In this document: positions 5,267-6,882 of the stretch, piece after piece
Layout of the letters: each line of letters begins with the position of its first letter
Position numbering within the stretch: position 1 is the first letter of the stretch
From: Acidimicrobiales bacterium mtb01
Lineage (GTDB): Bacteria > Actinomycetota > Acidimicrobiia > Acidimicrobiales > Ilumatobacteraceae
Length of the DNA: 64,000 nt
Assembly: GCA_004379135.1 (NCBI GenBank)
Contig: NBNI01000007.1
Coordinates: 421,501-485,500, forward strand
Reading direction: 5' to 3'
Notes under the pieces: generated by a model
Seen by the model: the letters and a program-made list of their open reading frames with translations, nothing else
Told to the model about the DNA's origin: nothing
Databases searched by the model: none
Made by a program: the position numbers and the translations under genes

Positions 5267-5272
5267 TAGCGT
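5267..5272 (+). promoter_or_regulatory. -10 box TAGCGT, leaderless start of the tandem ThyX-like gene
   Basis: Eight bases before GTG 5281; supports that start over TTG 5272, which would overlap the box. Confidence 0.55.
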
Positions 5273-5280
5273 TGTCTCTC

Positions 5281-6882
5281 GTGACGGTCTACGCGCCTGA
5301 GGAATTCACCCCGGACGAGGCCGACGTTCTCCGCAGGTATTTCACCAATCTCGACGGTCCGGTCTTCGCGCTGGTGAACCTTCCCGAGGTGGTGAAGGGT
5401 GCACTGTTCGCCCGTTACAGCCGCAGCAGCAAGAGCCTGCGCCGGTTGTTCCTCGACGAGTTCGTGGGCGATCTCGACATCGCCGGCGATCAGGGTGTCG
5501 ACGCGACGATCGGCCTCGAACGTGCCGAGGAGCTCTACGAGAAGGTCTTCTTCGAATACGGAGACGATTCGGTTGCGCAGTTGGGCGGCGTCCACCTGGC
5601 CTGTGAACAGGCTTCCAACGTCCTCACCAAGATTCTCGAATGGGGTCGTCTGGCCAGTTATCTCGAACAGAGCACGCGGTACATCGCCTACGACGCCCGG
5701 TTGGCCGGGCGCTACCGGTTCTACCGCGATCTCGACATCCTGAACTCGCGCTTCGGCACGCGGTACGTCGGCGACATGGACCGCATGTTCGACTCGTACT
5801 CGACGCTCATGGAGAAGGTCACCGACCACGTGCGGGTCACGGTGAAACGTGATCCGGCCGACAGCGACTTCGTGTTCCGGCAGGCCACCCGGGCCAAGGC
5901 GCTCGACGCGGTGCGCGGCGTTCTCCCGTCGTCTTCCCTCTCGAACGTGGGCATTTACGCGAGCGGTCAGGCGTACGAGGCGATGCTCATCCGCATGCGG
6001 GCCCATCCGCTTCCCGAAGCGCAGCAGTACGCGGCGCTGATGCTCGAGGAGTTGCGCAAGGTCATCCCGAGTTTCCTGCGTCGTGTCGATCTGGCCGACC
6101 GCGGCGGCCGTTGGAGCGACTACCTGTCGACGACTCGTCTGGAGACCTCGGAATTGGTGGGGGAGTTGTTCGCCGAGACCCCGGTCGAGCACAGTGCACC
6201 GGTCGTGCTGACCGATTGGGACCCCGACGGTGAGAACAAATTGATCGCCGCCATCTGCTACTCGCACACGAGCCTTCCCGAGTCGCAGATCCTCGCCAAG
6301 GTCGAGACCATGAGCCAGGCCGAGAAGGTGGCCATTCTTCGTTCGTACATCGGAGATCGCGAGAATCGTCGTCATCGACCCGGACGCGCGTTCGAGCGCA
6401 TCGACTACCGCTTCGACGTGCTGTCCGACTACGGAGCCTTCCGCGACCTGCAGCGACATCGTCTGCTCACGATCGAGTGGCAGGCGCTCACGCCGAACCA
6501 CGGCTACACGCGCCCCGACCTGGTCGACGAGGCCGGGATGGCGTCGGTCTTCGACGAAGTGATGACCCGTTCGGCCGACTTGTACGACGCGTTGAAGGTC
6601 GACTTCCCGCACCAGGCGAGCTACGCGGTGTCGATGGCCTATCGAGTCCGGTACGTGATGCAGTTCAACGCCCGCGAGGCGATGCACATGCTCGAGTTGC
6701 GCTCGTCGCCGCAGGGGCATCCGGCGTACCGGCGGGTGGCTCTCGAGATGCACCGTTTGATCGCCGAACAGGCCGGCCATCGCGCCGTGGCCGAGGCGAT
6801 GACGCACATGACCGTCGAGGCCCCCGAACTCGAGCGTCTGGCGGCCGAACGGCGCGCCGAAGCCCGTCGTACCGGCCGGTGA
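5281..6882 (+). CDS. Tandem (fused) ThyX-like flavin-dependent thymidylate synthase homologue
   Basis: 533 aa, about twice the length of a ThyX subunit, read as two ThyX-like domains (about 1-235 and 270-515). ThyX makes dTMP from dUMP with FAD and methylenetetrahydrofolate in a homotetramer whose active sites lie between subunits; its signature is RHRxxSxNExSxR. In the N-terminal half the aligned stretch W121-Y134 is WGRLASYLEQSTRY: the Ser, Glu, Ser and Arg-Tyr survive but the first RH does not. In the C-terminal half R392-H393-R394 survives and the rest is diverged (LLTIEWQALT). The two halves thus keep complementary parts of one motif. GTG at 5281 is preferred to TTG at 5272 because TAGCGT lies eight bases upstream. 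Whether the protein makes dTMP cannot be told from sequence. Confidence 0.75.
   Translation: MTVYAPEEFTPDEADVLRRYFTNLDGPVFALVNLPEVVKGALFARYSRSSKSLRRLFLDEFVGDLDIAGDQGVDATIGLERAEELYEKVFFEYGDDSVAQLGGVHLACEQASNVLTKILEWGRLASYLEQSTRYIAYDARLAGRYRFYRDLDILNSRFGTRYVGDMDRMFDSYSTLMEKVTDHVRVTVKRDPADSDFVFRQATRAKALDAVRGVLPSSSLSNVGIYASGQAYEAMLIRMRAHPLPEAQQYAALMLEELRKVIPSFLRRVDLADRGGRWSDYLSTTRLETSELVGELFAETPVEHSAPVVLTDWDPDGENKLIAAICYSHTSLPESQILAKVETMSQAEKVAILRSYIGDRENRRHRPGRAFERIDYRFDVLSDYGAFRDLQRHRLLTIEWQALTPNHGYTRPDLVDEAGMASVFDEVMTRSADLYDALKVDFPHQASYAVSMAYRVRYVMQFNAREAMHMLELRSSPQGHPAYRRVALEMHRLIAEQAGHRAVAEAMTHMTVEAPELERLAAERRAEARRTGR

Follow-up and report, generated by a model that had tools for sequence, protein, structure and literature searches.

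The gene at positions 5281–6882 on the forward strand of the window, i.e., the whole 64,000-nucleotide stretch of DNA that was analysed, encodes a double ThyX, and we consider it likely that this protein is a flavin-dependent thymidylate synthase with two specialised, fused domains, which would work as a dimer with two composite active sites and provide the sole de novo source of dTMP. Sequence comparison establishes the two Thy1 domains, an invariant and complementary split of catalytic residues between them, and a genome in which no other thymidylate synthase was detected, and it fits one origin.

The gene is a single open frame of 533 amino acids plus stop with a GTG start (an in-frame TTG at 5272 is a possible alternative start, adding three amino acids). 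Against Pfam PF02511, for which the cut-off is 24.8 bits, the whole chain scores 117.1 bits in two stretches, and in the genome search each half exceeds the cut-off alone, the N-terminal Thy1 domain (about residues 1–300; 5281–6180, forward strand) with 53.1 bits and the C-terminal one (about residues 305–510; 6193–6810, forward strand) with 62.9 bits. Canonical ThyX is one chain with an unbroken RHRxxSxNExSxRY motif, whereas the double consists of two fused domains with these residues divided between them, and its score of 41.8 bits against the TIGR02170 thyX equivalog (NCBIfam) lies below the cut-off of 87.9. Since these two features of canonical ThyX, the equivalog score and the unbroken motif, are missing, we file the double as a member of the Thy1 superfamily, and describe it as working like ThyX rather than as a canonical ThyX.

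A PDB search with the single sequence of the window protein found no ThyX, and a PDB profile search using 37 close homologues gave weak matches only (E 0.02); therefore, a structure search was needed to reach ThyX. The AlphaFold2 single-chain model, for which the input was 84 diverse rows (an earlier 37-row model was poor in the N half), has a pLDDT of 90.3 and a pTM of 0.88, and the order of secondary structure elements is similar in the two halves. The closest structures to it in the PDB are chains of T. maritima ThyX (TM up to 0.72, normalised to the PDB chain; 16–18% identity), and both halves are predicted to adopt the fold of the canonical homotetrameric ThyX/FDTS (PF02511; T. maritima TM0449, M. 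tuberculosis Rv2754c; PDB 1O26, 3GWC). Predicted structures of a phage LMM01 protein and of a 461-amino acid viral protein match the model over its full length.

Distribution of the active-site residues between the two halves

Site residues are numbered here as in T. maritima ThyX, with the local residues of the window protein alongside. The motif of the N half, WGRLASYLEQSTRY (residues 121–134; 5641–5682, forward strand), keeps the equivalents of E86, S88, R90, and Y91 (E129, S131, R133, and Y134) and has lost R78 and H79, with Trp and Gly in their places, while the C half carries RHR (residues 392–394; 6454–6462, forward strand), equivalent to R78-H79-R80, and has W, A, T, and P at the positions of E86, S88, R90, and Y91. 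The original prediction had placed both half-motifs at these residues, in agreement with the translation of the frame, and its statement that the Glu/Ser/Arg part is gone from the C half is borne out by the W, A, and T found there. Two more residues, which it did not mention, are split as well and make the complementarity wider: R212 (5914–5916, forward strand), the equivalent of R147, is found in the N half only, with Ser at this position in the C half, and R474 (6700–6702, forward strand), the equivalent of R174, is found in the C half only, with Met at this position in the N half.

We gathered doubles from 61 relatives, a 247-genome sample of the phylum, IMG/VR, phage records, and plasmids, and aligned 111 of them, spanning Actinomycetota, one Bacteroidota record, Bacillus/Paenibacillus plasmids, cyanophages, and jumbo phages. 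E129, S131, R133, and R212 in the N half and R392, H393, R394, and R474 in the C half are invariant in all 111, and Y134 is replaced, by Phe, in a single one (Microcoleus phage). At the mirror positions, the N half never has His79 and has M, L, or F in place of R174, and the C half is variable at E86, S88, R90, Y91, and R147. Thus, the question raised by the original prediction, whether homologues conserve the split, can be answered with yes across the 111 doubles, bar one Tyr-to-Phe exchange. Homologues in which each half has a complete or a wholly lost motif, which would speak against composite sites, were sought in the same set and none was seen; the unbroken motif does not occur within one domain in any of the 111, RHR being confined to the C half and ExSxRY to the N half. 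The loss of the first RH from the N half, as originally described, holds for the window protein, and as a family rule it holds for His79, which is always missing, but not for Arg78, since an Arg at this position is also present in the N half of 24 of the 99 Actinomycetota and IMG/VR sequences. The equivalent of R80 is likewise present in the N half (R123) in 99 of these 99.

By rough arithmetic rather than a formal test, a clean two-way split would have odds of 1 in 256 if each of nine catalytic residues had been retained in a randomly chosen half. A stronger argument is that the residues do not vary between lineages, with the three most distant phage rows tested having only 21–24% identity to the window protein. 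Because both residue sets are so constant in the 111 doubles, the split is not the product of chance decay.

Composite sites and the third subunit

In canonical ThyX, one active site is built from three subunits: subunit A contributes the RHR motif and Arg199 (R174), subunit B contributes Ser71 and Arg190 (R165), and subunit C contributes Gln103 (E86 position), Ser105 (S88), Arg107 (R90), and Tyr108 (Y91) (PMC6514825, section 3.1). When the 111 aligned doubles are compared with this map, the subunit-A set (R78, H79, R80, and R174) lies on the C half and the subunit-C set (E86, S88, R90, and Y91), along with R147, on the N half, so that all residues that the review names for these two subunits are found in the chain in their canonical context. 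R147 is presumably a member of the subunit-C set, following the HAMAP ThyX rule. In solved tetramers, each dUMP/FAD site receives the two sets from two different subunits, so that the split follows the ThyX subunit boundary. Thus, a complete dUMP-FAD site could be formed by one N domain together with one C domain, and these residues would be missing from the reciprocal site. The proposal of a pseudo-dimer with half as many sites as usual, each taking one half-motif from each domain, gains support from this match to the published subunit assignment together with the split in the 111 doubles.

We hypothesize that the N and C domains meet like two canonical ThyX subunits, with the RHR residues of the C-terminal domain holding FAD and dUMP and its R174 equivalent activating dUMP, while the E-x-S-x-R-Y loop and the R147 equivalent of the N-terminal domain would bind dUMP and close the site. 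Dimerization of two chains is probably still required because canonical sites use three subunits, a point absent from the original prediction. Such a dimer would mimic the ThyX tetramer as a four-domain pseudo-tetramer with two composite, working active sites and two dead positions, and would convert dUMP to dTMP with methylene-THF, FAD, and NAD(P)H. We infer this quaternary structure, the two sites per dimer, and the activity from the residue pattern.

The subunit-B residues differ among the doubles. In the four aligned doubles from Bacillus/Paenibacillus plasmids, the N half keeps GHxS (H53, T55), N163, and R165, and the C half has Trp at position 165; by this pattern, the N half of the other chain would be the B subunit. 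In doubles of the cellular branch, D95-D96-S97 (5563–5571, forward strand) occupies the H53-x-T55 position of the N half, where phage and Bacillota-plasmid doubles have His, so that D95 takes the place of H53 and S97 (T55/S71) is kept, and Q230 is found at R165. The C half of this branch keeps N463-A-R465 (6667–6675, forward strand), equivalent to N163 and R165, and a conserved NRRHxPGR segment, which reads NRRHRPGR in the window protein (residues 362–369; 6364–6387, forward strand). It appears that in the cellular branch either the role of the N half has changed or the B-subunit role has moved to the C half. Asp in the place of H53 is compatible with ligand binding since solved structures of the T. 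maritima H53D mutant hold FAD and dUMP (4kar, 4kas).

Alternatively, dTMP might be made at the composite sites of a different assembly, either by a single chain with one site per monomer or by a larger oligomer, in which case the number of sites per four domains would not be two. The confidence of the single-chain model (pTM 0.88) and the altered third-subunit residues of the cellular branch favor this, but a canonical site takes three subunits, which two domains cannot give, and this argues against the single chain; on balance, we regard a different assembly as unlikely.

Supply of dTMP in genomes, phages, and plasmids

The dimer with two composite sites is proposed to be the only de novo source of dTMP in the cell, and genome content and neighboring genes fit a role in dTMP synthesis. 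In the host genome, which is 97.7% complete, we searched for thyA and a normal thyX, as the original prediction had suggested, and found neither ThyA nor a second Thy1/ThyX; DHFR_1 was also not detected there. ThyX returns THF rather than DHF, and therefore DHFR is less needed. The genome encodes a dCTP deaminase (dcd) and a thymidine kinase, the latter making thymidine salvage possible. Among the 61 relatives, the double is present in all 38 high-quality genomes, with the Thy1 matches lying inside it, and ThyA is present in one of the 61. The double was found in 71 of the 247 genomes of the phylum sample, none of which has a separate single Thy1 alongside it, and 68 of which are without a ThyA-family match; in the other three, this match is partial (G268), a fragment (G182), or interrupted (G244). 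In phage Tunturi_5, a dCMP deaminase gene is followed by the double, with a dUTPase nearby, and the dcd gene of a Euzebya plasmid is located about 0.7 kb upstream of the double. The plasmid doubles are annotated as FAD-dependent thymidylate synthase.

Rather than making dTMP, the double might be a ThyX-derived protein with another job, such as methylating another pyrimidine or flavin/NADPH chemistry, while dTMP comes from salvage or from an unknown enzyme. A precedent is found in Streptomyces ThyX paralogues (PolB), which methylate UMP as well as dUMP (PMC5954106), and the thymidine kinase in the genome would permit it. However, every residue needed for dUMP is kept, the double is the sole thymidylate synthase candidate in 68 of the 71 genomes, and phage and plasmid copies lie near dUMP-making genes. 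Therefore, we consider another job improbable, and the non-dTMP role that the original prediction left open is weakened, given that the genome has no other thymidylate synthase that we could detect. PolB, of polyoxin biosynthesis, is also a diverged ThyX (PMC5954106); it is, however, encoded in addition to a normal thyX, while no thymidylate synthase other than the double was detected here. That the two halves are decay products of a duplicated gene and the chain a relic can practically be dismissed, even though each half by itself is without residues that canonical ThyX needs, because both half-motifs are invariant in 111 sequences with identities as low as about 21%, and nearly all of the searched genomes have an open frame.

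Counting against a dimeric, composite thymidylate synthase as the sole dTMP source are the altered B residues of the cellular branch, the TIGR02170 score below the cut-off, and the thymidine kinase. Despite its apparent role as sole de novo source in the order searched (the named homologues being Acidimicrobiia, e.g., Ilumatobacteraceae) and in many other Actinomycetota, the double scores under the NCBI thyX equivalog cut-off. For ThyX in general, the reason why three subunits contribute to each site and a possible influence of the four sites on each other are hard to test in a homotetramer because each mutation hits all four sites. The natural division of labor in the double would make each role separately mutable and the sites countable.

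Two observations concern ThyA-family matches in the phylum sample. The interrupted gene (G244:C39:1968-3886), in a genome that also has a double, is in two pieces (model positions 1–176 and 172–266) about 1 kb apart, possibly due to an intron or an inserted element. Weak ThyA matches (32–45 bits; model about 81–235) also occur in many phylum genomes in four families (f38, f49, f51, and f55), mostly in frames of about 220–330 amino acids and in genomes with a single ThyX or without ThyX.

Origin and ThyX-like outliers

In profile comparisons, N halves are interlinked across cellular, plasmid, and phage doubles (probability 99.7–99.9), and the C halves of cellular doubles are linked to those of plasmids and phages (99.1–99.8), although plasmid and phage C halves are linked to each other at only 53. 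To single ThyX, the N halves match at 97.6–98.6 and the C halves at 98.7–98.8, with the phage C half at only 77. N halves and C halves were not linked to each other by profile comparison, and a BLASTP comparison of the two halves returned no significant match; therefore, the kinship of the halves rests on their profile links to single ThyX. In a 47-domain tree, the N halves (100/99) and the C halves (99/97) each form one group, to either side of a single branch, while the details are uncertain owing to long phage branches. The simplest interpretation is a single ancient origin, in which one duplication, fusion, and division of labor would have been followed by spread. More tentatively, and with considerable doubt, the doubles may be an ancient thymidylate synthase subfamily that arose once, is common to Actinomycetota, the Bacteroidota record, Bacillota plasmids, and large phages, makes dTMP at two composite sites per pseudo-tetramer, and keeps its dead sites for, e.g., regulation or NADPH handling.

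The two-Thy1 architecture is already visible in databases, where these proteins are annotated as thymidylate synthase. PHROG 36506 "thymidylate synthase" (491 positions; cyanophage LMM01, jumbo phages) has the same double architecture and the same split; its members differ from the window protein in sequence (21–24% identity), in an N half that keeps H53, and in a C half without N163/R165. We found no description of a double, tandem, or fused ThyX or of its split site in the open-licence literature that was searched.

Five genomes gave weak matches to a single Thy1, which were considered as split doubles and rejected, as they belong to a different ThyX-like protein of about 300 amino acids (L205–L209, in G111, G099, G069, G132, and G211). 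It has an RHR-type motif, NTHRxFSRNSxSSR, near the N-terminus and an H.SPLEH-like motif C-terminally, and resembles a circularly permuted ThyX; in G132, Thy1 positions 59–190 precede 11–80, the second with an E of 0.04. A profile check of the C-terminal part of this type of protein was not significant. Four of these five genomes have no ThyA match.

Some doubles are also unusual in context or length. The sole Bacteroidota case seen, on a record labelled as a Parabacteroides distasonis plasmid (NZ_OY725790.1, L219), is 47% identical to the window protein. One genome apparently has two double-ThyX genes (G100:C71 and G100:C5), and may be a mixed bin because its contamination is given as 5%. In another (L196, G260:C98), the double matches in two pieces (residues 3–298 and 273–532) within a frame of 596 amino acids, which suggests an insertion between the domains.
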